From: an uncultured Bryobacteraceae bacterium | GTDB taxonomy: Bacteria; Acidobacteriota; Terriglobia; Bryobacterales; Bryobacteraceae | Assembly: GCA_938027685.1 (NCBI GenBank) | Contig: CALJAM010000004.1 | Span: 1-50,819, forward strand | Direction of reading: 5' to 3' | DNA length: 50,819 bases | In this document: in pieces, positions 35,068 to 50,819 of the stretch | Position numbering within the stretch: the first letter of the stretch is position 1 | Layout of the letters: the number at the start of each line of letters is the position of its first letter | Position numbers and translations under genes: made by a program | The notes under the pieces: generated by a model | Databases searched by the model: none | What the model saw: only the letters and a program-made list of their open reading frames with translations | What the model was told of the DNA's origin: nothing

Positions 35068-38644
<3,577 letters not shown>

Positions 38645-38725: not shown

Positions 38726-39799
38726 ATGAGTGCTTCCCCCTCCCGCGGGGCGGCCGCCTGCAGCATCGCCTCCCGCTCGCGCATCGCGCTAGTGCGCGCT
38801 ACGGCCCATTCGTTCCGCGAACGCCATCCGGATCTGCCCTTCTACGTGTTGCTGGCTGACGAGCCGCACGAGGGTGTGCCCGACGCCTCGGAGCCTTTCC
38901 AGGTTGTTCTTTTCGAGGCTCTCGAGATCCCGGACAGTGCGGCCTTCCGTTTTCGCTATCGCGAGCTCGAGCTGAGCTACGCCTGCACGCCCTATCTCAT
39001 CCGTCACCTGCTCGAGCGAGGGTTGGACCGGGTCCTGTTCCTGAAACAGGAAACCCTCGTGCTCGACCGCCTGGACCCGCTTTTCGAAATGCTGCTGCGG
39101 CATTCGGTGATCCTGACGCCCCACCTGCTGGAGCCTGCCACGGGCGCCGACGCCGTGGCTCGCGAGATCAGCGTGCTGCGCGCGGGCGTCTTCAACGGGG
39201 GGGTGATAGGGTTCTCGCGCTGCGAAGAGGCTTTCGCCGTCCTCGAATGGTGGCAGAGGAGGGTGGAAAGCGATTGCGTGCTGCAGGTCGACCACGGCTT
39301 GCACTACGAGCAGCGGTGGCTGGATCTGGTTCCGAGCCTCGCCCCCGGCTGCGGCATCGTGCGCGATCCCGGCGTCAATATCGGGCACTGGAACCTGCAC
39401 GAGCGCCGAATCCGGGAGCTCGGCGGCACGTACCGGACCGGCGCAGATCGGGTGCGCATCGTTCGCTTCAGCGGTTATGATCCCGCGCGCCCGGAGATGG
39501 TGAGCCGATACAACCTCACGTTACGGGTTGGCGACACGGCGGATGGGGCCGCGATTTTTCGCCGGTACCAGCGTCTGCTGCTCGAGTTCGGCTGGGAGGC
39601 GACGTCGCGGCTGCCCTACGCTTGGGATTTCTTCGACAACGGGGTCCGCATTCATCCGGAGATGCGTACGCTTTACCGACGCTTCCCCGACGGGACTTCC
39701 CGCTGGAGGGACCCCTTTCGCACCGCGGGCCCGGCGACTTTTTACGGCTGGCTGAGAGAGCACCGGCCCGAGCTGTTCGAGGAGGTCGGGGGTGCCTGA
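38726..39799 (+). CDS. Glycosyltransferase-like protein lacking the DxD motif
   Basis: This 357-residue protein is a paralogue of the next gene, with shared blocks [29 protein letters not shown] and FSGYDPARP. The overall pattern is GT8/GT-A-like. The position of the metal-binding DxD in the neighbour (LFLDPDMLV) reads LFLKQETLV here (residues 107-109 KQE), so the usual metal ligands are absent. It may be inactive, use another mechanism, or act with the neighbour. No transmembrane segment is obvious. The last 8 bases overlap the next gene. The family call rests on the paralogue; the function is open. Confidence 0.65.
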
Positions 39800-40805
39800 A
39801 CCAACGGGCGTCGTCAGCATCGCGGCGCCGAACTACGCGGCGCATGTGCGCGTGCTCGCACGATCCCTCCGGGGGTTCCATCCCGACGTCCCGCTTTGCG
39901 TCGTGCTTGTTTCGCCGCGGGCCTGTCCGGCTCCGTTTGCCGACCCGCCCGTTCGTTGGCTGACCTTGGCGGACCTGTGCACGCCGGCGGAACGACGGCG
40001 TCTTCTGCTCCGATACGGGCCCAAGGGGTTGTGCGCCGCGTTGAAGCCCCGCGCGCTACGGTGGATACTGGACTCGGGGCACCGGAGCGCACTCTTTCTC
40101 GATCCCGACATGCTCGTTCGGGCGAGTCTCGACGATTGTCTGGAGGTCGTACAGCGCTACGCCCTTACCCTTACACCCCATCTGACGCCTTCACAACTGG
40201 GCCGCGCCGATCCCGCTTTGGAGCGCGAGCTGGTGATGGTCGGGACTTTCAACGGAGGTTTCATCGGGGTCAGTGACCGCCCCGAGGTGCGACGGTTCCT
40301 AGACTGGTGGGATAACCGCTTGCAGACCCACTGCCTCGAGGATCCCGCAGGGGGGATACATTACGATCAGCGGTGGCTCGATCTGGCGCCGGGTTTCGTG
40401 CCGGATTTCCGGGTGCTGTCGGATGCAGGAATCAACTTCGGCCACTGGCGGTTGCCCGCGCTGCGGGTGGAAAGGCGCGACGGCGACCTGGCGGTCGAGG
40501 GACGTCCGCTGCGGCTCATGCATTTCAGCGGTTACGATCCGTCACGGCCGGATGAGCTGACGCGCTTCCGCCCAGGCCTGCGCGTTCATGAGTTGGGTCT
40601 GCCGGCCGAGCTGTTCTTCGATTACGCGGCGTTGCTGCTGGAAGCCCGTTGGGACCAATGGCAACAGGTGGGATGGGAGCTACCGCGCGGGCTTCGTCTG
40701 GCGCGGCGCGTTCAGCGAGCGTTGCGGTGGGCACGGGCGGGAGCTGCGCTGCTGATGCGAGCGACGGGGCGCCGGGTTCGCACGCCGCGAAGGAGTCAGA
40801 GGTAA
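39792..40805 (+). CDS. Glycosyltransferase, GT8-like
   Basis: The 337-residue protein has a GT-A-like N-terminal strand-helix pattern (GVVSIAAPNYAAHVRVLARSLRGFHPDVPLCVVL), the DxD-type motif DPD at 104-106 (ALFLDPDMLV), and FNGGFIGVSD, DQRWLDLAP, NFGHW in the acceptor half. It probably transfers a sugar from a nucleotide donor with a divalent metal. A basic C-terminal tail (RRVRTPRRSQR) may bind membrane. It starts with GTG after GGAGGT and overlaps the previous gene by 8 bp, so the two are made together. Acceptor unknown. Confidence 0.75.
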   Translation: MPEPTGVVSIAAPNYAAHVRVLARSLRGFHPDVPLCVVLVSPRACPAPFADPPVRWLTLADLCTPAERRRLLLRYGPKGLCAALKPRALRWILDSGHRSALFLDPDMLVRASLDDCLEVVQRYALTLTPHLTPSQLGRADPALERELVMVGTFNGGFIGVSDRPEVRRFLDWWDNRLQTHCLEDPAGGIHYDQRWLDLAPGFVPDFRVLSDAGINFGHWRLPALRVERRDGDLAVEGRPLRLMHFSGYDPSRPDELTRFRPGLRVHELGLPAELFFDYAALLLEARWDQWQQVGWELPRGLRLARRVQRALRWARAGAALLMRATGRRVRTPRRSQR

Positions 40806-40949: not shown

Positions 40950-41453
40950 TCACGCGGGTTGCTGCGAGCTGCGAGTGGCGAGCGCCACGAGTTGCTCTTC
41001 GATCCAGTCGAGCGCGGCAGGGATCGCCGCTTCGACCGCAGGATGCATCCGCCCGCCCAGCGTCACGCAATCGGCCGCCTCCACGGCGAGGATCCGGACT
41101 TCGGTCGGGGCGCTCAACCCGAGGGCGCGGGCCAGGTCGAGGGCTTCGCGCAGTCCCGCGCCGTGAGGCGCTGCGGCCGGCGCGGTGCATAGCCTGTCTG
41201 CGTCGAAGGCATACAAAGTGCCCGGTTCGCGACGACCCGTCTGGATCGTATCCACGATGAGCAGGGAGGGGACGCCGTTCAGGTAGTCGAGAAGGGCCAG
41301 GCCCGATTCGGATGTCATGACGACGTCGAGGGATGGGAAACGCGCGGCCGCCTCTCGCGCGACGATGATGCCAAAGGCGTCGTCGGCCAACAGTTCGTTA
41401 CCGAGGCCGAGCAGCCGAACCCTGACAGCGTCACTCCCTGCGGATCGTTCCAT
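40950..41453 (-). CDS. [NiFe]-hydrogenase maturation protease
   Basis: These endopeptidases cut the C-terminal tail of the hydrogenase large subunit once nickel is inserted. The 167-residue protein has LLGLGNELLADDAFG at the N-terminus with the metal-binding acidic residues, VDTIQTG in the middle, and the HGAGL and ILAVEAADC regions that fit the HyaD/HoxW family. It overlaps the large-subunit gene by 23 bp, and is the last gene of the redox operon. The large subunit ends with a tail after DPCLGCATH, so a substrate is present in the same operon. Confidence 0.88.
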   Translation of the reverse strand: MERSAGSDAVRVRLLGLGNELLADDAFGIIVAREAAARFPSLDVVMTSESGLALLDYLNGVPSLLIVDTIQTGRREPGTLYAFDADRLCTAPAAAPHGAGLREALDLARALGLSAPTEVRILAVEAADCVTLGGRMHPAVEAAIPAALDWIEEQLVALATRSSQQPA

Positions 41454-42930
41454 CCGAATCCCGGCGCAACAGCGCTACGCGGTGACCCTTGGTGTCGCGG
41501 ACCTCGATCCACAGCGGCATGCTTCCGGGCAGCGAGTGGGTGGCGCAACCCAGGCAGGGATCGTACGCCCGGAATGACATCTCCACCATGTTCAAGAGGC
41601 CCTCGGAGACGTTTGCGCCCGAGACCAACGCACGCGCCGCCTTTTCCACGCTGAGCGAGATGCGGGCGGCGTTGTTCTGTGTGGCCACGATCATGTTGGC
41701 CTTCTGAATGATGCCGCGGGAATCGGTGAGGTAGTGGTGGATGAGAGTTCCGCGCGGGGCCTCGACCACCCCCACGCCTTCGCTCGGGGTGGCTGTGGGG
41801 ACCGTGCGGATGTTGGGGTCGGTGATGCCGGGATCGTCGGCGAGCTCCTTCATGCGCTCGGCTGCGTAGAGCAGCTCGATCAGCCGTGCCCAGTGGTTGG
41901 CCAGCGTGTGATGCACCGGCCGGCCCAGCGTGGCGAAGTATTCCACGGCGGCTTGTTGGGCCAGGGGGGTGGCCAGTTTTTCGGCCGCGTTGAGGCGGGC
42001 CAGCGGAGCCACGGCATAGACGCCGCTGTCGGCGCCGTCGGTGAATCCCTTCCAGCCGACGGGCTTGAGGAAGCAGAACTTCATGTAGCTCCAGGGCTCC
42101 ACGCGCTCGGCGATGTAGTCCACGTACTGCGCGGCCGTGAAGGAGGCGAAGGGCTTGCCCTCGGGCGTGACGACGCGGATGACGCCGTCGTAGAAATTCA
42201 GGCGGTTTTCCGCGTCGACCAATCCCATGTAGTAAGTGCGGTGCGTGAAAGCGTCGGAGCGGATCAGCTCGACGTAGTGGCTGTCGGCCAGCACCAGTTT
42301 GCGGAAAGCCTCGAGCGAGAACAGTCCGAACTCAACCGCCTCGGCGGCCACGCTGCGGAACTTCTGGCGGTCCTCCTCGCTGAGCGGACGGGCCACGCCA
42401 CCGGGCAGGCCGAAGACGGGATGGCCCGCCTTGCCGCCGGCCAGTGCGATCAGCTCGCGCAACTTACGGCGCATGGCGATAACCTTCTGTCCGGTTTCGA
42501 CGCCCACCTTCGCAATGACGCCCAGTACGTTGCGCTCGGCGGCTGGGGCCTGCGGGCCGACGATGAAGTCCGGGCCGCCCAGGAAGTAAAAGTGCAAGGC
42601 GTGGTCCTCGACCATGAAGGTCGTGTAGATCAGTTCGCGGATCTTTTTGGCTGCGGGCGGAGGCTCGACTTGATAGAGGGCGTCGAGCGCTTTGGTCGAG
42701 GCCATGTGGTGCGCGGTAGGGCAGACGCCGCAGATGCGCGAGGTGATCTGCGGCATGTCCTCGGCCGGGCGGCCCTGGGCAAACTTTTCGAAGCCACGCA
42801 GCTCGGGCACCTGGAAGTAGGCTCGATCGACGGCGCCCTGCTCGTCGAGGAAGATTTCGATGCGGCCGTGTCCTTCCAGGCGGGTGATGGGATCGATGGT
42901 GATCCTGCGGGTGGTCGAAATCTCAGCCAT
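41431..42930 (-). CDS. mvhA: [NiFe]-hydrogenase large subunit, MvhA-like
   Basis: The large subunit holds the NiFe site that splits or makes H2. The 499-residue protein opens with the family block ITIDPITRLEGHGRIEI, has the first Ni-binding motif SRICGVCPTAHH (Cys67, Cys70) and the second DPCLGCATH (Cys459, Cys462), followed by a 34-residue tail for cleavage. The sequence pattern fits cytoplasmic group 3 (MvhA/F420-nonreducing) enzymes rather than membrane-bound group 1. GAGGTGA precedes the ATG. It follows the small subunit by 9 bp, and HdrA and MvhD are in the same operon, which supports group 3c. Confidence 0.92.
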   Translation of the reverse strand: MAEISTTRRITIDPITRLEGHGRIEIFLDEQGAVDRAYFQVPELRGFEKFAQGRPAEDMPQITSRICGVCPTAHHMASTKALDALYQVEPPPAAKKIRELIYTTFMVEDHALHFYFLGGPDFIVGPQAPAAERNVLGVIAKVGVETGQKVIAMRRKLRELIALAGGKAGHPVFGLPGGVARPLSEEDRQKFRSVAAEAVEFGLFSLEAFRKLVLADSHYVELIRSDAFTHRTYYMGLVDAENRLNFYDGVIRVVTPEGKPFASFTAAQYVDYIAERVEPWSYMKFCFLKPVGWKGFTDGADSGVYAVAPLARLNAAEKLATPLAQQAAVEYFATLGRPVHHTLANHWARLIELLYAAERMKELADDPGITDPNIRTVPTATPSEGVGVVEAPRGTLIHHYLTDSRGIIQKANMIVATQNNAARISLSVEKAARALVSGANVSEGLLNMVEMSFRAYDPCLGCATHSLPGSMPLWIEVRDTKGHRVALLRRDSDGTIRRE

Positions 42931-42939
42931 GGCGTCACC

Positions 42940-43914
42940 TCACTTTCCGGCCCGGTTGGGGCGTTTTCCCGGCAGCGGTGCAGCCGGAAGACTGTAGCGA
43001 TAGAAAGTGCCCACCGGGTCAGGGATGTTTTCCAGGATGCGGATGATTTCGGCTTCGTCGTTGCTGCCGGTGAGCGACGCGATCGAGGAAAGGGCTTTTG
43101 CGCCGAAGTCGCGCACGCGGCTGGTAGCGCCGAAGCACCCCGTGCAAGGCATGTTGCCCTGGATACAGCGGGCTTCGCAGCCGGCGCGCGTGGCCGGACC
43201 CAGGCAGAGCAGGCCTTGGGCAAGCAGGCACCTGTCGGTCTCGATCAGCGTTTCGTGCGGGCGCCGGAACCGGGTGATGGCGAGCTTGTCCGGCTTGGAT
43301 TCGCGCCGCGGGCATTCCTCGCACAGGGCTTTGTCGGGAGCCAGCACGGCGCCGCGTTCGGGAAGGCTGCCTGTGAGTAGAGCGGCCACCGCATCGGCGA
43401 GCAGCTTAGGGGTCGGCGGACAGCCCGGGATGGAGTAGTCCACTGGGATCACCTGTCCGAGCGCGCGTACCCGGTCCCAGAAGACCGGAAGCTCCAGGGC
43501 CGCACCGTTGGTTGCGTAATGGGGCGCGGGCCGCGTTCCTTCGGGGTTCAAGGTGCTGGGCGATTCCGAGTAGACGGCTCGGAGCAGACTTTCCCGGTCA
43601 TAGAGATTGGCGAGGCCGGGCACGCCGCCCGTCTGGGCGCAGGCGCCGAAGGCGACGACGATGCGGGCCTTGCGACGCAGCAGTTTGGCCATCTCTTCCT
43701 GTTCGCTGGTGCGGATGGCGCCGTTGATGAAGGCGGCCGCGATCGAACCATCGGGCATGGCTTCGACGTCGGTGCGCTTGAAGTCCAGCGCCACCGGCCA
43801 GAAGACGATGTCCACGGCGGCGACGACGTCCAACACCTTTTCGGCGAGGTCCACCACCGCCTCTTCGCAGCCGCCGCAGGAAGCGCACCAGTAAAAGGCG
43901 AGTTTCGGCTTCAT
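42940..43914 (-). CDS. mvhG: [NiFe]-hydrogenase small subunit, MvhG-like
   Basis: The small subunit relays electrons from the NiFe site through iron-sulfur clusters. The 324-residue protein has no Tat signal, in agreement with a cytoplasmic enzyme. The proximal-cluster ligands are in WCASCGGCEE (Cys10, Cys13), GACAQTGG and PGCPPTP; further cysteines in LCEECPRR and AGCEARCIQGNMPCTGCFG are candidates for additional clusters. Its start overlaps the mvhD stop (4 bp). The closest described type is MvhG of HdrABC-MvhADG complexes. Confidence 0.88.
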   Translation of the reverse strand: MKPKLAFYWCASCGGCEEAVVDLAEKVLDVVAAVDIVFWPVALDFKRTDVEAMPDGSIAAAFINGAIRTSEQEEMAKLLRRKARIVVAFGACAQTGGVPGLANLYDRESLLRAVYSESPSTLNPEGTRPAPHYATNGAALELPVFWDRVRALGQVIPVDYSIPGCPPTPKLLADAVAALLTGSLPERGAVLAPDKALCEECPRRESKPDKLAITRFRRPHETLIETDRCLLAQGLLCLGPATRAGCEARCIQGNMPCTGCFGATSRVRDFGAKALSSIASLTGSNDEAEIIRILENIPDPVGTFYRYSLPAAPLPGKRPNRAGK

Positions 43915-44390
43915 CGTGCCACCGCCTCCTCAGCCGGCTCGAACTGCTCGGACTTGCGGAAGGGCCCCAGGGCGCGCACCTGCTCGACCATTTCGTTGAC
44001 GACCTGGCGCAAGCGCTCGCCCTCGGAGGCGGAAATCCACTCCAGTCGGAAGCGCTCCGGCTCCACCCCCATCTGCTCGAGCATGCGGCGGAGCAGATGG
44101 TAGCGTCGCAGGGCCTTGTAATTGCCCTCCTGGTAGTGGCAGTCGTTGGGATGGCAGCCACCAATCAGCACGCCGTCGGCCCCCTGTGCGAAGGCCTCCA
44201 GCACGAACTGCGGATCCACACGGCCGGAGCACATCACGCGCACCACGCGGACGTTGGGTGCATAGCGCAGGCGGGAGGTGCCGGCCAGGTCAGCCGCCAG
44301 GTAAGTGCACCAGTTGCAGAAGAAGGCGACAATCTTGGGTTCGAAAGCCGCCGTCTGGTTTTGCCCGACTGGGGCGGTTGCTTCAGGCAT
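43911..44390 (-). CDS. mvhD: MvhD-like iron-sulfur linker subunit
   Basis: MvhD carries electrons between the hydrogenase and HdrA. The 159-residue protein has the DUF3209/MvhD pattern with five conserved cysteines: FFCNWCTY (Cys25, Cys28), VMCSGRVDP (Cys54), GGCHPNDCHYQEGN (Cys79, Cys84). Normal family members are about 140 residues; this one has a longer acidic tail. The gene lies between hdrA and mvhG, in keeping with its bridging role. Confidence 0.88.
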   Translation of the reverse strand: MPEATAPVGQNQTAAFEPKIVAFFCNWCTYLAADLAGTSRLRYAPNVRVVRVMCSGRVDPQFVLEAFAQGADGVLIGGCHPNDCHYQEGNYKALRRYHLLRRMLEQMGVEPERFRLEWISASEGERLRQVVNEMVEQVRALGPFRKSEQFEPAEEAVAR

Positions 44391-44441
44391 ATGCCGTCAC
44401 TCCTTTGATCTGCCGAATCCTTGTCCGGATCACCGGCCTAC

Positions 44442-46409
44442 TCAGGCCAGCACGCCCACGACCTCCTCGAAGATTTGCTCGTCCTCGAACAGGTGCTGGC
44501 GGATCGAAGCCGACGGGCACGCGGCCACGCAGGTGCCGCAACCCTTGCACAGGGCCTCGTTGACCTGGGCGACGTTCTTTTCCGGCAGGAACGAGATCGC
44601 ATTGTAGGGGCACAGGCCCACGCAAGTCTTGCAACCCGAGCAAACCTCCTCGAGCACGTAGGCCGTATTGGGTTCGAGCTCGATGGAGCCGGTGTCCAAC
44701 AACTGCATGGCCTCCGCCGCGGCCGCTCCGGCCTGGGCCACCGTGTCCGGGATGTCCTTCGGGCCCTGGCAGCAGCCTGCCAGGAAGATGCCGTCGGTGA
44801 AGGTGTTCACCGGGGCCAACTTGGGATGCCGTTCGAGGAACCAGCCCTCGCTCGAGCAGGAGATATTGAACAGGCGGCGCACCTCGGTGGCGTCGGCCTG
44901 GGGCTCCAGGCCGGTGGCCAGGATCACCATGTCCACCGGGATCTTGCGCACCTGCCCGAGCAGCGTGTCTTCGGCTCTCAGGATGAGCCGGCCGTCGGTC
45001 TCAGCCGGGTAGACGTCGGCCACCTTACCGCGGATGAAGTGCACGCCCTCCTCGGCCACGCGATTGTAAAACTCCTCGAAGGCCTTGCCCGGCGTGCGCA
45101 TGTCGATATAGAAGTTGTAGACCTCGGCCCCGGTGCGTTCCTTGACCAGGTGGGCCAGCTTGAGCGAGTACATGCAACAGACGCGCGAGCACCAGCGGTT
45201 GGTGTGCTCGTCGCGGCTGCCCACGCAATGGACGATGCCGACGCTGCGCGGCTTGCGCCCGTCACGCAACACAAGCTCGCCTCCCGTGGGTCCGGCGGCG
45301 TTGATCAGGCGCTCGACCTCGAGCGCCGTGTAAACGTTGGGGTAGACGCCGTAGCCGTAGTAGGGGATGCGCGAGGCATCGAAGGCCTTGTAACCGGTGG
45401 CCAGGATGATCGCCCCAACCTCGATGGTTTCGATGGTCTCCTGTTGCCCGAAATCGATCGCTTGGCGCTCGCCGCAGGCTTCCAGGCAGGTCTTCTTGCA
45501 CTTGCCGCTCTTGAACTCGATGCAGGTCTCCGGGTCAATGACAACCACCTGGGGCACCGCTTGCGGGAAGGGAATGTAGATGGGCTTGCGCTTGCCCAGA
45601 CCCTGGTTGAACTCGTCATAAAACTTGGGCTGCTTGTAGACACACGCCTCGATGCACTCGAGGCAGCCGACGCATAGGTCCTCGATCACGTAGCGGGGCT
45701 TGCGGCGGACACGGACCTTGAAATCGCCCACGAATCCTTCCACGCCGATCACCTCGGAGTAGGTCCACAGCGTGATATTGGGGTGGTCCTTTACGGCGGT
45801 CATCTTGGGCGTGAGGATGCAGGCGGCGCAATCCAGCGTCGGGAAGGTCTTGTCGAACATGGCCATGTGGCCGCCGATGGTGGGCTCGCGCTCGACCAGG
45901 TAGACCTTTTTGCCGGCGTTGGCGAGCGTGAGCGCCGCGTGGATGCCGGCGATGCCTCCGCCCACCACCAGGACGGACTGCCGGATGGGTATGCTGCGGC
46001 GCTCCAGCGGGCGATTCCAGGCCACGCGCTGGACGGCGGCGCGGAGCAGATCGCGCGCCTTCGCGGTGGCGGCTTCTCCGGAATGCACCCACGAGTCGTG
46101 CTCGCGGATGTTGACCATGTGGCAGAGATAGGGATTCAGCCCGGCTTCCTCGCAGGCGGTGCGGAAGGTGTGCTCGTGCAGGTGCGGGGAGCAGGCCGCC
46201 ACCACCACGCGCTCCAGGCCGTGCTGGGCGATATCGGCCTTGATGAGCTCCTGGCCCGGATCCGAGCACATGTATTTGTAGTCGCGGGCCACGATCACGC
46301 CGGGGAGCGTGGCGGCGAACTCACGCAGCGCAGCGACGTTGATGGTACCGGCGATGTTGGTGCCGCAATGGCAGATGTAGACCCCGATGCGGGCGCTCGG
46401 TTTCGTCAC
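44442..46409 (-). CDS. hdrA: HdrA, FAD/iron-sulfur subunit of heterodisulfide-reductase-type complexes
   Basis: HdrA is the flavin subunit that performs electron bifurcation in HdrABC-MvhADG of methanogens. The 655-residue protein shows an N-terminal HdrA domain (GVYICHCGTNIAG, AACSPHLHEHTF), the FAD-binding GGGIAGIHAAL (150-160), a ferredoxin-like cluster (Cys246, 249, 252, 256), further cysteines at 296, 304, 308 and 312, the HdrA signature CVGSRDEHTNRWCSRVCC, and two C-terminal [4Fe-4S] sites (Cys590-600 and Cys621-631). It is full length and overlaps the EMO-like gene by 4 bp. No stand-alone hdrB or hdrC follows; the Hdr-type partner here is likely the EMO/HdrD-like proteins. Confidence 0.9.
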   Translation of the reverse strand: MTKPSARIGVYICHCGTNIAGTINVAALREFAATLPGVIVARDYKYMCSDPGQELIKADIAQHGLERVVVAACSPHLHEHTFRTACEEAGLNPYLCHMVNIREHDSWVHSGEAATAKARDLLRAAVQRVAWNRPLERRSIPIRQSVLVVGGGIAGIHAALTLANAGKKVYLVEREPTIGGHMAMFDKTFPTLDCAACILTPKMTAVKDHPNITLWTYSEVIGVEGFVGDFKVRVRRKPRYVIEDLCVGCLECIEACVYKQPKFYDEFNQGLGKRKPIYIPFPQAVPQVVVIDPETCIEFKSGKCKKTCLEACGERQAIDFGQQETIETIEVGAIILATGYKAFDASRIPYYGYGVYPNVYTALEVERLINAAGPTGGELVLRDGRKPRSVGIVHCVGSRDEHTNRWCSRVCCMYSLKLAHLVKERTGAEVYNFYIDMRTPGKAFEEFYNRVAEEGVHFIRGKVADVYPAETDGRLILRAEDTLLGQVRKIPVDMVILATGLEPQADATEVRRLFNISCSSEGWFLERHPKLAPVNTFTDGIFLAGCCQGPKDIPDTVAQAGAAAAEAMQLLDTGSIELEPNTAYVLEEVCSGCKTCVGLCPYNAISFLPEKNVAQVNEALCKGCGTCVAACPSASIRQHLFEDEQIFEEVVGVLA

Positions 46410-48358
46410 GGTTGGGTCGCCTCCTCGACCAGCTCGACGATGTCTTTGATGACCAGCTTGTCTTCCAGGCCCGTCGTCTTACGGGCGTCCTGGAACATCA
46501 CCCAATCTTTCGGACAGGCCACGACCAGCGTGGCGGCTCCGGTGGCGGCGGCCTCTCGCACGCGGCTTTCGGCCGGCCGCTCCTGAATGCCGGCCACATC
46601 CTCCATCCAGATTCGGCCGCCGCCGGCGCCGCAGCAATAGGAGCGGCTGCCGCAGCGCGGCATCTCGACCAGCTCGAGGCCGAGCGCGCGCAGAATCCGG
46701 CGCGGCGCGTCGTAAACGCCGTTGTAGCGGCCCAGGTAGCAGGGATCGTGGTAGGTGACCTTGCCGCTCAGCCGCCGGAGGGGCGTCAGCCGGTTGGTGC
46801 GAATCAGTTCCCAGATCAGCTCGGTGTGATGCGCCACTTGGGGCCGGCCGTTCGACCAACGGTATTCCTGTCGCAGTGCATGCAGGCTGTGCGGATCCGT
46901 GGTGACGATCTTCTCGAAGCGCGCCTTCGCGATGGCGGCTAGATTCTTTTCCATGAGGGTTTCAAACAACCCCTCTTCGCCTACCCGGCGGGCGTCGTTG
47001 CCCGAATTCTGTTCGGCCTCGTAAAGGATCCCGAAATCGACGCCTGCACGCGCCAGAACGCGTGCCGCTGTGCGGGTGATCGGCTGCAGGCGCGGGTCGT
47101 AGGCGGCGTAATCGCCGGTGAACCAGAGCCAAGTGACCGGCTCCTTGCGCGCGTCCTTGATCTTGAAGTCCAACCCTTGTGCCCAGCGCGCGCGGTTACG
47201 CGCCGATTGCCCGAAGCTGTTGCCGTAACGCGCGAGGTTGGTGAGCGCCTCCTGGAGATGGCCGTCGAGTTCACCGTCGGCCACGAGCTTGCGGCGGAGC
47301 TCGATGAGCACGGGAACGTGCTCGTTGGAAACCGGGCAGCGGGCGATGCAGGCCAGGCAGGTCATGCAAGCCCATACCTGCTCCGGTTTCACCCGGTCGG
47401 GCAACAAGGCGTGGCCGTTGCCCCCTGCTGCCAGCGAGGCCATGATCAGTTCCTTGACCTGATGCATAAGCATCTTGGGCGACAGCTGGTAACCGCTGTT
47501 CTGAGCGGGGCAGGCGCGATCGCAGCGCCCGCATTCGGCACATGCCAGCCCGCTGAAGAGTTGCCGCCAGGTGAATTCCTCCAAACGCGAGGCGCCGTCG
47601 GAGGCTGCGGGCATGGGGGGCTCCAGCGCGCCGAACAGTACGCCGAAGGGCGAGGCCAGCAGGTGCAGGTGCTTCGAATAGGGCAGGTAGACGAGGAACC
47701 CGAGGACGGTGACCATGTGGACCCACCACATGGCTGCCGCCAGTGCGCCTGCCTCAGCGGCTTCGGCGCCAGCGGCGGCGAGCAGGCCGCCGACGGCCGT
47801 GGCTACGGGCCTCCAGCCATGGGCTTCTCCGGCGAGACTGGCGGCACCGGCGCCCACCAGAGAGCTGAGCAGGACGACGGAAATCAGCGTGAGGATGATG
47901 CCCGCATCGCGCGTCTGCTCAAGACGCGGCGGTCGCAGCAGATAGCGCCGGAAAGCCGCCGTCACCAGCCCGGCCAGACCGATCACACCGAAGATTTCCA
48001 GTGCCAACGCCATGGCGTAGGCCTGATCCGCGTAGGGAACCGGCAGGAACGGCAGGAGCCCCTTGAGCAGGTTCCAGAAGAAGCTGGTAGCGTAAAAGAC
48101 GAACGCCCAGAAGATCAGCAGGTGCGCGACGCCGATCAGCGGCTCTTCGAGCAGCTTGCGTTGCAGCAATACTTCGAAGAGGAAGCGGCGGATTCGGGCG
48201 GGCCAGCGGTCCCAGCGAGGCTCCGGACGCGCGCGCTTCAATACCTTCACGTAGGCGGCCACGCGGCGGCCGAACAGGCCGAACGCGACCAAGGCGAGCC
48301 CCCACAGAATCAGGCGCGCTGGGATGCCCAAAACTAAGCCGGCCGCCGGATCCGTCAT
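46406..48358 (-). CDS. Membrane cytochrome b/HdrD fusion, Etf:menaquinone oxidoreductase (EMO)-like
   Basis: EMO-type proteins pass electrons between reduced Etf and menaquinone. This 650-residue fusion has a NarI-like membrane domain with several helices (about 10-235) and candidate heme-b histidines His79, His214, His230 and His232; two [4Fe-4S] sites (Cys273, 276, 279, 283 and Cys331, 334, 337, 341); and HdrD-type CCG repeats. The second CCG repeat is intact (Cys540, Cys569, Cys575, Cys576, Cys615). In the first repeat the cysteine position near 451 reads NSGND, where the truncated HdrD-like protein of this operon reads CAGEC. It follows etfA by 5 bp and overlaps hdrA. The quinone link is a family-based inference. 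Confidence 0.82.
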   Translation of the reverse strand: MTDPAAGLVLGIPARLILWGLALVAFGLFGRRVAAYVKVLKRARPEPRWDRWPARIRRFLFEVLLQRKLLEEPLIGVAHLLIFWAFVFYATSFFWNLLKGLLPFLPVPYADQAYAMALALEIFGVIGLAGLVTAAFRRYLLRPPRLEQTRDAGIILTLISVVLLSSLVGAGAASLAGEAHGWRPVATAVGGLLAAAGAEAAEAGALAAAMWWVHMVTVLGFLVYLPYSKHLHLLASPFGVLFGALEPPMPAASDGASRLEEFTWRQLFSGLACAECGRCDRACPAQNSGYQLSPKMLMHQVKELIMASLAAGGNGHALLPDRVKPEQVWACMTCLACIARCPVSNEHVPVLIELRRKLVADGELDGHLQEALTNLARYGNSFGQSARNRARWAQGLDFKIKDARKEPVTWLWFTGDYAAYDPRLQPITRTAARVLARAGVDFGILYEAEQNSGNDARRVGEEGLFETLMEKNLAAIAKARFEKIVTTDPHSLHALRQEYRWSNGRPQVAHHTELIWELIRTNRLTPLRRLSGKVTYHDPCYLGRYNGVYDAPRRILRALGLELVEMPRCGSRSYCCGAGGGRIWMEDVAGIQERPAESRVREAAATGAATLVVACPKDWVMFQDARKTTGLEDKLVIKDIVELVEEATQP

Positions 48359-48363
48359 GGCAG

Positions 48364-49338
48364 TCAGCCTTTCCGCGCCCGGACGGCCTCGGCGAGGGCC
48401 GGCATGAGCTCCAGCGCGTCAGCCACTACGCCGTAGTGGGCGAGGTTGAAAATGGGCGCCTGGGGATCGGTGTTCACGGCCACGATGAGCGCTGAGTTCT
48501 TCATGCCCTCGACGTGCTCGGGCGCGCCGCTGATTCCCAGCGCCAGGTAGAGCTTGGGTTTGACCGTGAGGCCGGACTTGCCGACCTGTCGCGACAGCGG
48601 CAGCCAGCCCTGATCGACTACGGGGCGCGAGCCGCAGACTTCTCCACCCAAGGCCTGGGCGAGCTCTTCGGCCAGCTCGAGGTTGTCCTTGCTCTGGATG
48701 CCCCGGCCGACGGCCACCAGGATGTCTTCGCGCGTCAGGTCGACCTCGCCGGCTTCCGGCTCGATGTAGCGCTTTAGGCGCAGGCGGACGTCGGAAGGAA
48801 CGCTAACGGGGACCTGCTCGACGGCGGGCTGACGCTCGGAACGCCCCTGATCGGCGGGCCGCGCGCCCGGCCACAGCCCGATGATCGCAGGCTCTTTTGT
48901 CAGACGGACGCGTGTTTCGAGCTTGCCGCCGTAAAGCACGCAGCGGGCTTCCAGGGCGCCGTCGGAAGCCTTCAGGTCGATGGCGAAATTGACCGCGGGA
49001 GCGCCGAGGATGGCGCCGAGCAGCGTACTGACGCCCCAAACGTTGTTCGTCGCCGGGACGAGCACGACGCGCGGCTGCCGCTGCCGCGCCAGATCCGCCA
49101 GCGCGGCCGCATGAACTTCAGGAATGGGCTCGGCCAAAGCCGCATGGTCTGCGCACAATACCGTATCCGCGCAGCCCAACTGCCCGGCCAAGGTCGAGCA
49201 CTGAGGGCCCGGCAGGATCGCCTCCAGCGGGACCTGGAGAGCGTCCGCCAGTTCACGCCCGAGAGCAAGCGCTTCAAAGCTGATGTCGTTGATCTGTCCC
49301 TGCCACTGCTCCACGACAACCCAAACGCTTCCTGCCAC
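48364..49338 (-). CDS. etfA: Electron transfer flavoprotein alpha subunit
   Basis: EtfA carries the electron-transferring FAD. The 324-residue protein has the N-terminal domain (LVPATNNVWGVSTLLGAILGAPAV) and the FAD-binding C-terminal domain with AVGRGIQSKDNLELAEELAQALGGEV, SRPVVDQGWLPLSRQVGKSG, LYLALGISGAPEHVEGM and NTDPQAPIFNLAHYGVVAD. The pattern is a complete Etf alpha. It follows etfB by 12 bp and is next to the EMO-like gene. Whether this Etf bifurcates cannot be decided from these motifs alone. Confidence 0.93.
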   Translation of the reverse strand: MAGSVWVVVEQWQGQINDISFEALALGRELADALQVPLEAILPGPQCSTLAGQLGCADTVLCADHAALAEPIPEVHAAALADLARQRQPRVVLVPATNNVWGVSTLLGAILGAPAVNFAIDLKASDGALEARCVLYGGKLETRVRLTKEPAIIGLWPGARPADQGRSERQPAVEQVPVSVPSDVRLRLKRYIEPEAGEVDLTREDILVAVGRGIQSKDNLELAEELAQALGGEVCGSRPVVDQGWLPLSRQVGKSGLTVKPKLYLALGISGAPEHVEGMKNSALIVAVNTDPQAPIFNLAHYGVVADALELMPALAEAVRARKG

Positions 49339-49350
49339 GGCGCACCTCCT

Positions 49351-50133
49351 TCAGAGCAAGCCCCGCTCCGCGAGCAGCTCGCAGATCTTGCCTGCGACTT
49401 CCTCGGGCGAGCCTTCCAGCATTTCGGCCCGGCCGGCCACTTCCGGCTTGGCCATCGACAGCACTTCGATCCCGTCGAGGGATTGGGCGACCGGCTGGGG
49501 AACCTCGACGTCCTCAATCTTTGCGCTCTTCATAGCCGCGCGGACTTTGGCCACGGGCACGTAACGGGGCGGTTTCTCGGCCGACTGCACGCCGAGCACG
49601 GCAGGCAGAGCGATCTCGAACTCACCCCGGTAGCCGGCCTGGAACTCCTTTATGACGGAGGCCTTGCCCTCGGCGATTTCGGTCACAGCCGTGACCACGC
49701 CGATGTAGGGCAAACCGAGTCGGAAGGCCACCAGCGGCGCGATGAGACCGTCGAGGTCTTCGATGGTTTGCGCCCCGGTCAGGATCAGGTCGGCCGGCAA
49801 GAGCCCGGCAGAGGACTGGAGGGCGGCGACGCATGAGCCGGCCAGGGCGGGGACGCCGAGGCCGGGGTTCACGCCGCGCAAACGCACGAGCCTGTCGGCC
49901 CCCTTGGCCGCTGCCGCATATAGCAGATCGTCCACCTCAGGCGCTTCGGGCGCCACCACAGTCACCCGCCCGCCGTGGCGTTCCTTCAGCAGCAGCGCCT
50001 CTTCAAGAGCGTGATCGTCGGATTCGCTCGCGATCAAGCGCAAGGCTTCACGGTCGAGCGATTTGCCATCGGGCGCGATCTCCAGCTCCTCGATCACGTC
50101 CGGCACCATCCGCATCAGCACCAGGAAATGCAT
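49351..50133 (-). CDS. etfB: Electron transfer flavoprotein beta subunit
   Basis: EtfB binds AMP in ordinary Etfs or a second FAD in bifurcating ones. The 260-residue protein shows the family pattern: HFLVLMRMVPDV at the start, SESDDHALEEALLLKE, AAAKGADRLVRL, LILTGAQTIEDLDG and the C-terminal PRYVPVAKVRAAMK block. ATG 50133 is chosen because GGAGG stands 8 nt upstream; a GTG two codons earlier would be too close to it. The start lies 2 nt after the stop of the HdrD-like gene. Acceptor proteins are likely the EMO-like and HdrD-like products of this operon. Confidence 0.92.
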   Translation of the reverse strand: MHFLVLMRMVPDVIEELEIAPDGKSLDREALRLIASESDDHALEEALLLKERHGGRVTVVAPEAPEVDDLLYAAAAKGADRLVRLRGVNPGLGVPALAGSCVAALQSSAGLLPADLILTGAQTIEDLDGLIAPLVAFRLGLPYIGVVTAVTEIAEGKASVIKEFQAGYRGEFEIALPAVLGVQSAEKPPRYVPVAKVRAAMKSAKIEDVEVPQPVAQSLDGIEVLSMAKPEVAGRAEMLEGSPEEVAGKICELLAERGLL

Positions 50134-50135
50134 GT

Positions 50136-50819
50136 TCACGCCTCCATTGCCTCCGCCAGCAACTCGGTGACGTCACGCACGACCATCTTCTGGTCGTAGC
50201 CGAGAACCTTGAGAGCGTCCTCGAACCGCGAGATCTCGTAAGGGCAGGAAACCGCGAGCACGTCGGCGCCGGTGGCAATGGCCTCCTTGACGCGCCGCTC
50301 CGACAACCTTTCATACCCCTTGGCCTTGTAGTAGGTGTCCAGCCACATGCCGCCGCCTCCGCCGCCGCAGCAGATCGAGTTGATCCGGTTGTGCGTCATT
50401 TCGACGAGCTTGACGCCAGGGATGGCTCGCAACAGGGCCCTGGGCTCGTCAAAGAATCCGTTGTGCCGTCCGATGCAGCAGGCATCGTGGTAGGTGACGG
50501 TGTAGGGCAACTTGCGAGTGAGCAGCGGACGGAGCTTGTCCACATACCGGGCCAGGAAGGGCGTGGTCTGCTCGACCGGGTAGCGGAAGCCGCGCTCGGG
50601 ATATTGATAAATGAAGGCATCGTAGGCGTGGGCGCCCGACGTCACAATCCGGTTGAACTTGTACTTGGCGAAGACCGCCATGTTGTAGTCCATCAGCGTG
50701 TCGAACAGGCCGGTTTCGCCGAGCAGGCGGGCGCATTCGCCGGCGCACTTTTCCTCGTTGCCCAGAATGGCGAAGTCGATGCCCAAGGCATGGAACAGGC
50801 GCGCCGTGGCGCGGCTCAC
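50136..50819 (-). CDS. HdrD/GlpC-like CCG-domain iron-sulfur protein, N-terminus outside the window
   Basis: The visible 227 residues correspond to the C-terminal half of an HdrD-like protein. Two CCG-type repeats are seen: EEKCAGECARLLGETGLFD (first) and YHDACCIGRHNGF...NSICCGGGGGGMW (second), with a last cysteine in AVSCPYEI. Such repeats bind [4Fe-4S] clusters of the heterodisulfide-reductase type. The frame is open to the window end, and the GTG at the edge is not taken as a start. Homology to residues 440-645 of the EMO-like protein is clear. It is the first visible gene of the operon, 2 bp from etfB, and may be the cytoplasmic partner that replaces HdrB. Confidence 0.82.
   Translation of the reverse strand: MSRATARLFHALGIDFAILGNEEKCAGECARLLGETGLFDTLMDYNMAVFAKYKFNRIVTSGAHAYDAFIYQYPERGFRYPVEQTTPFLARYVDKLRPLLTRKLPYTVTYHDACCIGRHNGFFDEPRALLRAIPGVKLVEMTHNRINSICCGGGGGGMWLDTYYKAKGYERLSERRVKEAIATGADVLAVSCPYEISRFEDALKVLGYDQKMVVRDVTELLAEAMEA

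Follow-up and report, generated by a model that had tools for sequence, protein, structure and literature searches.

What does a [NiFe] hydrogenase operon do with an electron transfer flavoprotein and a membrane quinone reductase in the same transcription unit? This question is raised by contig C4 of an uncultured Bryobacteraceae bacterium, which was analysed over its entire length of 50,819 b (the window); the genome comprises 3.93 Mb in 45 contigs. At positions 40950-50819, nine minus-strand genes follow one another in the order hdrD-etfB-etfA-EMO-hdrA-mvhD-mvhG-mvhA-protease, where etfB and etfA encode the electron transfer flavoprotein (ETF) and EMO a protein resembling ETF:menaquinone oxidoreductase (EMO/EtfD). 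An earlier note, made from the sequence alone, had described a one-strand unit of nine genes with gaps of at most 51 bp, and our re-check of open reading frames (ORFs) and families (Pfam/NCBIfam) bore this out. Junctions range from -23 to +51 bp (negative values are overlaps): -4 for hdrD/etfB, 12 for etfB/etfA, 5 for etfA/EMO and -4 for EMO/hdrA, then 51 for hdrA/mvhD, -4 for mvhD/mvhG, 9 for mvhG/mvhA and -23 for mvhA/protease.

Partner genes beside hdrA

We found that HdrA goes with the partner module and that the hydrogenase is common to both types of operon, the Etf/EMO type and the HdrCB type. GTDB species genomes were scanned with an MvhA alignment, and the best 80 named loci (L numbers) of at least 558 confirmed relatives were kept. 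Among these 80, the gene beside the mvh-adjacent hdrA belongs to an Etf/EMO module or is hdrD in 16, belongs to an HdrCB module in 37 and to both modules in two; 25 were left unassigned, 14 of them flagged as running off the contig. L054, L056, L057, L060 and L061 were taken as the same records as L078, L083, L082, L104 and L101, and were not counted again. The 16 Etf/EMO or HdrD loci come from seven named phyla (Acidobacteriota 7, Actinomycetota 2, Ignavibacteriota 2, and Sysuimicrobiota, Bacteroidota, Zixiibacteriota and Planctomycetota 1 each) and one unclassified bacterium. The earlier note had proposed a search for the same gene order and its spread. The order from hdrD to mvhA recurs in nine of the 16 (L078, L083, L089, L090, L097, L104, L128, L134 and L145); the protease match is absent in L104 and L145, and two HdrB-like pieces precede hdrD in L134. 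L129 has etfB-etfA-EMO-hdrD-hdrA, L113 has hdrC-hdrB at its head and no hdrD, and L138 has both. Four loci (L091, L120, L148 and L155) are cut upstream, and L155 was assigned from hdrD alone. The two double loci, L082 and L101, read EMO-hdrA-hdrC-hdrB-hdrA-mvhDGA. A one-off gene order was thus rejected, since the partner recurs in this way.

Trees were compared over the same 49 loci throughout, 16 of the Etf/EMO type (the window included) and 33 HdrCB-adjacent. This set excludes L084, L145 and L152 (long branches), HdrA fusions of more than 800 amino acids (aa; L100, L105, L116 and L121), incomplete HdrA and loci without an assigned partner; the HdrCB-side hdrA of double loci was scored as HdrCB. 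On the HdrA tree the partner changes at least three times (mean of shuffled labels 13.4; none of 300 shuffles as low), whereas the MvhA, MvhG and MvhD trees need 11 changes each (means 13.7-13.8; 16, 31 and 17 of 300 as low, respectively). When any Etf/EMO in the operon was counted, HdrA needed 5 changes against 12, 12 and 12 for MvhA, MvhG and MvhD. In a wider MvhA tree of 77 rows, that is 76 of the 80 named relatives (short MvhA left out) and the window, the Etf/EMO label changed 14 times (shuffled mean 15.7; 71 of 500 as low). In a careful tree built from 55 HdrA rows, 16 of the 18 rows labelled Etf/EMO fell into one 19-row set (support 99/96), which also holds two HdrCB rows and one unassigned row. 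The EMO-side hdrA of the double loci falls inside this set and the HdrCB-side hdrA outside it. Outside the set, L104 and L134 form a separate pair. The tree therefore gives no support to a single clean origin, and gain and loss are not distinguishable on it.

The hdrA gene and the acceptor genes therefore seem to form a cassette that is exchanged beside a common hydrogenase. The tree comparison puts the end of the exchanged module at the 51-bp hdrA/mvhD gap (44391..44441, minus strand), the widest of the operon. The earlier note had linked the hydrogenase/HdrA set with the Etf/EMO set; the recurrence across phyla and the way in which HdrA goes with its partner speak for a functional link between them.

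Several results pull in the other direction. The partner counts depend on the best 80 of at least 558 confirmed loci. When HdrA residues 420-498 were removed, the partner changed 7 times instead of 3 (shuffle mean 13.7, lowest 10), and fasttree gave 5 changes for residues 1-330 and 9 for residues 331-655 without the 420-498 segment. Labels can also cluster because HdrA and the genes around it descended together, with no need for their products to touch. At 23 alignment positions HdrA of the Etf/EMO type (16 rows) is separated from that of the HdrCB type (33 rows) with an overlap below 0.35; 21 of them lie in residues 326-570, mostly 425-489. Five loci (L104, L134, L145, L110 and L115) were held out of this comparison. 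L110 and L115, which have an HdrCB partner and sit inside the Etf clade, carry the Etf-like segment, and L104 and L134, which have an Etf partner and sit outside that clade, carry the HdrCB-like segment. A partner-specific interface at about residues 425-489 was therefore rejected: four of the five held-out rows follow ancestry, and L145 fits neither type clearly.

Three further features were observed among the relatives. A MarR-type regulator with a cysteine-rich C-terminus heads four HdrCB-type operons, one double locus and one Etf/EMO-type operon (L055:8811-9410, L061:464-1123, L079, L087, L094 and L097; Pfam was run on two), and in L075 the regulator lies downstream. The mvh-adjacent HdrA is about 1130 aa long, about 460 aa above the usual size, in the HdrCB-type loci L100, L105, L116 and L121 of three phyla. 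L063 (genome G095) and L137 have a reversed mvhDGA-protease-etfB-etfA-EMO beside another hydrogenase pair.

Subunits of the operon

The hdrA gene (44442..46409, minus strand) encodes the subunit with flavin adenine dinucleotide (FAD) and [4Fe-4S] clusters, at which bifurcation is expected. It scores 862.7 bits with the NCBIfam HdrA2-like model, under the cut-off of 1100; that model also spans MvhD. The protein aligns end to end with HdrA of the bifurcating complexes (8rvu_a, E 1.6e-216; 5odc_A, E 4.2e-216) and keeps, at full length, the FAD domain and the inserted and C-terminal ferredoxin domains found in HdrABC-MvhAGD.

Next to hdrA, also on the minus strand, lie mvhD (43911..44390), whose product is the expected [2Fe-2S] link between hydrogenase and HdrA (FlpD 8.4e-57; 8rvu_F 8e-53; 5odc_D 8.2e-52), and mvhG (42940..43914) for the small subunit (PF01058, Oxidored_q6), which reaches 216.1 bits with NCBIfam VhuG, under the cut-off of 450. 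The large subunit gene mvhA (41431..42930; NiFeSe_Hases) has VhuA as its best NCBIfam model (402.6 bits, under the curated cut-off of 800). In PMC6085437, the motifs ICGxCxxxH and AYDPCxxCATH in MvhA define bifurcating Mvh. Window MvhA carries ICGVCPTAHH and AYDPCLGCATHS, and mvhG and mvhD are encoded with it, as in group 3c (Mvh-type); the class of mvhA, which the earlier note had left to be settled, is by motif group 3c. Its closest relatives among the best 80 of at least 558 are the Bryobacteraceae metagenome-assembled genomes SKYB110 (94%) and RSWS6 (91%), Acidobacteriota. The operon is completed by a maturation protease of the HycI/HyaD superfamily (40950..41453, minus strand; PF01750 3.1e-11; TIGR00072 above cut-off). 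The genome search flagged one or two in-frame TGA codons in MvhA of G018:C13 and G036:C14 (L074 and L065), where the ORF caller gives an unbroken frame.

Only the 3' part of the hdrD-like gene lies in the window (50136..50819, minus strand; 227 of about 400 aa). It encodes a CCG protein (Pfam/NCBIfam), putatively a soluble HdrC-HdrB fusion acting as an EtfD-like wire. In the full-length homologue L054:5018-6226 the N-terminal part matches HdrC (5odc_C, 1.2e-13) and the C-terminal part EtfD (9ojn, 3.3e-45). An AlphaFold2 model of the L078 homologue (12-row alignment; predicted local distance difference test, pLDDT, 84; predicted template modelling score, pTM, 0.86) superposes on EtfD with Z 34.8 (2.4 A, 382 residues), on HdrB with Z about 22 (2.5 A, 231 residues) and on HdrC with Z 8.9 (3.7 A, 139 residues); further matches of the fold search were LutA (Z 23.1) and a Helicobacter pylori protein (Z 20.2). 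All 12 rows share eight dicluster cysteines together with C289, C325, C326, C367, H239 and E370 (L078 numbering). HdrD keeps one complete noncubane site, and at most two of the four cysteines of EtfD's other site (D1, below) remain. In HdrB from 11 loci of the HdrCB or double type, two cysteine sets are retained (one short row is missing N-terminal positions).

No hdrB or hdrC was found in the operon, and a query with one HdrB gave a single match in the genome, in another cluster on C5. HdrC and an HdrB with two catalytic noncubane [4Fe-4S] sites, as in HdrABC-MvhAGD, are thus not encoded in this operon. The earlier note had described the set as being without HdrB and HdrC. This holds for the window genes; HdrD itself, however, is an HdrC-HdrB-type fusion and likely the equivalent of HdrBC, which then is not simply missing. 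Since the second noncubane site is absent, a role as classical disulfide reductase is unlikely for HdrD; judging from the conserved residues, disulfide chemistry seems to be gone from the Etf/EMO version and the relay to remain.

Between HdrD and HdrA lie etfB (49351..50139; PF01012), etfA with its FAD domain (48364..49338; PF00766 and PF01012) and EMO (46406..48358; Fer4 and CCG; phmmer 9ojn_A, E 1.2e-78), all on the minus strand. Like EtfD of Mycobacterium smegmatis (9ojn) and EMO of Syntrophus aciditrophicus, window EMO combines five predicted transmembrane helices in its N-terminal part, a [4Fe-4S] dicluster and a CCG domain in one chain, next to etfBA; an AlphaFold2 model from 15 rows (pLDDT 81, pTM 0.67) shows five long N-terminal helices. 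Invariant in 15 of 15 rows are C540, C575, C576, C615, H490 and D618. These residues and their HdrD counterparts align with the D2 ligands of EtfD (Cys637/672/673/709 and His583), with Glu (HdrD) or Asp (EMO) at Cys712. In contrast to EtfD, the EMO residues aligned with the linear [3Fe-4S] D1 site (Cys503, 538, 581 and 584 in M. smegmatis) are not Cys, and EMO stands in a hydrogenase operon with HdrA. According to PMC13083937, the D1 cysteines are missing from the EtfD homologues FadF and DgcB too, and ETF electrons are thought to enter these proteins directly at D2; the His-coordinated D2 site of EtfD is termed non-catalytic there. The D1 site is therefore not defining for the wider EMO/EtfD family. 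The invariant His79, His214 and His232 of EMO are candidates for heme b ligands. EtfB lacks the stretch AIDGDTAQVG(P/S) of solved bifurcating EtfB, having TIEDLDGLIAP in the window and AIDDLDGLxAP as the consensus of 13 rows. This stretch would be a signature of bifurcating EtfB, judging from the aligned solved chains, and its absence makes HdrA the likelier splitting site.

Proposed reaction and its rivals

We put at about an even chance the proposal that the operon encodes a membrane-linked variant of HdrABC-MvhAGD that splits electrons of H2 between ferredoxin and menaquinone; the complex, the bifurcation and the direction are what we infer from the genes. By homology, H2 would be oxidised at MvhA, and its electrons would reach the HdrA FAD by way of MvhG and MvhD. 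There they would be split, the low-potential electron going to ferredoxin and the high-potential one to HdrD, which would occupy the place of HdrBC in the known complex. HdrD would serve as a wire, taking the electron from its HdrC-like dicluster to a single noncubane cluster of the relay type, and EtfAB may carry it from there to the corresponding cluster in EMO; the dicluster and heme b of EMO would then reduce menaquinone (MK). The net reaction would be 2 H2 + 2 Fd(ox) + MK -> 2 Fd(red) + MKH2 + 2 H+, where Fd is ferredoxin. With E0' values of -414 mV for H2, -74 mV for menaquinone and -420 or -500 mV for ferredoxin, the computed standard release is 64 or 49 kJ per 2 H2, respectively, and balance is reached at about 0.2 or 5 Pa H2. 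The reaction is thus expected to be exergonic down to about 0.2-5 Pa H2 and reversible below.

The wider proposal falls somewhat short of an even chance: that this is a new H2:ferredoxin/menaquinone oxidoreductase, in which ETF shuttles between a soluble HdrD wire on HdrA and EMO, and whose HdrA-acceptor cassette has been swapped repeatedly across phyla. Some further points count against the main proposal. The closest solved large subunit is NiFe-HydABCSL (7t2r_D, 4.5e-114), just ahead of MvhA (5odc_F, 4.3e-110). Etf may have partners other than HdrA and HdrD. Some relatives hold Etf/EMO and HdrBC together. The earlier note had named complete HdrB and HdrC genes beside the operon as grounds for dropping its reading, and they do occur next to the Etf/EMO module: in L082 and L101 between both hdrA genes, in L113 at the head of the operon, where they replace hdrD, and in L138 at the head together with hdrD (hdrC here being cut by the contig start), with the two HdrB-like pieces at the head of L134 as a further case. 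We read such co-occurrence as two modules side by side.

The rest of the genome bears on the electron donors. It has two ETF alpha genes and, by PF00441, one acyl-CoA dehydrogenase, which lies directly downstream of the second etfBA on C1; the EtfB encoded there carries GRQAIDGDTAQV. The operon Etf has no obvious dehydrogenase of its own. Disposal of fatty-acid electrons is set back by this, rather than dropped, as PF00441 does not cover every ETF-linked dehydrogenase. Of the two uses suggested by the earlier note, feeding H2 into the quinone pool is the better one, and there is weak support for passing acyl-CoA electrons out as H2. The genome also has two COX1-family and two POR_N matches, which point to likely outlets for quinol and ferredoxin.

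One alternative is a plain relay from H2 to menaquinone, in which HdrA has lost bifurcation. That step alone would be strongly downhill, and, to our knowledge, HdrA proteins of the sHdr type work in oxidation without ferredoxin reduction. Yet window HdrA keeps its FAD and ferredoxin domains at full length, with E of about 1e-216 to bifurcating HdrA, and a simple uptake hydrogenase would not need HdrA. Bifurcation is favoured because HdrA would seem needless without ferredoxin reduction, and we regard the plain relay as distinctly improbable. The set might instead run in reverse in fermenting or syntrophic cells that have no better acceptor, combining menaquinol and reduced ferredoxin (confurcation) to form H2. 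A balance near 0.2-5 Pa H2 permits either direction, and Syntrophus EMO and Etf serve reverse electron transfer (PMC8805022). The operon bears no mark of direction, though, and the two COX1-family matches make a good quinol acceptor likely; reverse operation is for us an unlikely role.

It is similarly doubtful that one transcript serves two machines, namely a soluble ferredoxin-linked hydrogenase of HdrA, MvhADG and HdrD, and an EtfAB-EMO pair working separately for acyl-CoA or other ETF dehydrogenases. In the phylum, EMO matches at E<=1e-100 were found in 65 of 396 genomes (mostly three candidates scored per genome), and 18 of 20 fetched EMO loci show no hdr match, so that EMO itself is not tied to HdrA; EMO/EtfD are moreover known partners of fatty-acid oxidation (PMC13083937, PMC8805022). 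The only PF00441 dehydrogenase, however, has its own Etf, the Etf/EMO-HdrA pairing recurs across seven phyla and follows HdrA, not the hydrogenase, and the set stays together though its gene order varies. The bifurcating, menaquinone-linked variant of HdrABC-MvhAGD is the reading that we prefer.

Genomic surroundings and known systems

The earlier note had pointed to genes beyond base 50819. The contig holds none, as C4 stops inside hdrD, and the remainder was placed on C3. The end of C3 carries a 171-aa N-terminal part of HdrD with 89% identity to the operon HdrD of genome G002, of the same genus, and the C4 part is 94% identical to the same protein over 227 aa. The C3 piece is flanked by the same neighbours as hdrD in G002, including a DnaJ-domain gene; the others are presumably a symporter gene and a Der-like gene. 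From these neighbours and identities, the missing part is probably the end of C3. The DnaJ-domain gene of G002 runs divergently, so hdrD is the first gene of the operon there. No exact end overlap of C3 or C5 with C4 or C17 was found. C4 and C17 share a 141-bp end, as do C3 and C5, and we read these as a repeat node lost in assembly. A second hdrD paralogue (end of C5 and start of C17) explains the assembly break, as the paired ends share 141 bp.

At its other end the operon stops at the protease gene, since the neighbouring plus-strand ORFs face it. Genes at 35068-38644 that we take to be dnaN- and gyrB-like adjoin the operon; presumed dnaN-/gyrB-like genes, in the other orientation, adjoin a canonical hdrCBA-mvhDGA operon in G028 (L055:3415-8622). 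Two tandem, seemingly related ORFs (357 and 337 aa) lie at 38726-40805 between the gyrB-like gene and the operon, and in G002 (L054) the gyrB-like gene directly follows the protease. A separate cluster on C5 (L052, L010; L064 in G002) comprises hdrC, hdrB, a short HdrA (281 aa), a protein with an Fe-hydrogenase C-terminal domain, NuoE- and NuoF-like proteins, a 2Fe-2S/HdrA-like hybrid (589 aa) and mvhDGA, with MvhA 63% identical to that of the window. It is a possible NAD-linked Hdr-hydrogenase composite.

Among known systems, the methanogen H2:CoB-CoM heterodisulfide/ferredoxin reductase HdrABC-MvhAGD (5odc, 8rvu) shares alignable HdrA, MvhD, MvhG and MvhA with the window. Unlike it, the window has HdrD in place of HdrB and HdrC, no two-site CCG protein, and EtfAB and a membrane EMO in addition. 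Both EtfABCX/FixABCX and the reaction proposed here reduce ferredoxin and menaquinone with Etf in the high-potential branch, as is shown for EtfABCX in PMC10734219. The donor here would be H2 instead of NADH, with bifurcation at the FAD of HdrA, and EtfB has no bifurcating stretch. In Desulfobacterium autotrophicum HRM2 the membrane HdrD-like HdrF3 clusters with etfBA, and HdrA1 with MvhA2DG, but PMC2702500 describes these as separate clusters.

In two Acidobacteriota loci, L159 and L160, HdrA genes that look like those of sulfur oxidisers are followed by an HdrC-HdrB-type fusion, etfB, etfA and EMO, in that sequence. Their sulfur genes we take to be TusA-, DsrE- and LbpA-like. Apart from EMO, this layout looks like the sulfur-oxidising type II sHdr system, defined in PMC11582611 as shdrC1B1AHB3 with etfAB, and by analogy Etf would serve an HdrA there as in the window. 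The operon shares HdrA, the HdrC-HdrB fusion and EtfAB with type II sHdr but does not have that cluster: its nine genes include no C1, B1 or H and no sulfur-carrier or lipoate-binding gene, and its donor module is MvhDGA. HdrABC-MvhAGD, Etf-EMO/EtfD and the half formed by HdrA, the fusion and EtfAB (type II sHdr) are known already. No report of an operon with Etf/EMO and HdrA-MvhADG was found in the open literature, consulted in part; subscription papers lie mostly outside it, so absence is not proven.

In methanogens, the HdrA hydrogenase covers the cost of ferredoxin reduction by reducing a soluble disulfide. If the proposal is true, a version paid for by quinone would enable respiring bacteria, perhaps also some that have oxygen-using oxidases, to produce low-potential ferredoxin from H2 when the gas is present at pascal levels, and a soluble hydrogenase would tie H2 to the quinone pool. 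The group 3c hydrogenases of uncultured bacteria would get a function based on their partner, and the gene upstream of hdrA would reveal it. What bacterial HdrA systems use as acceptor becomes testable.

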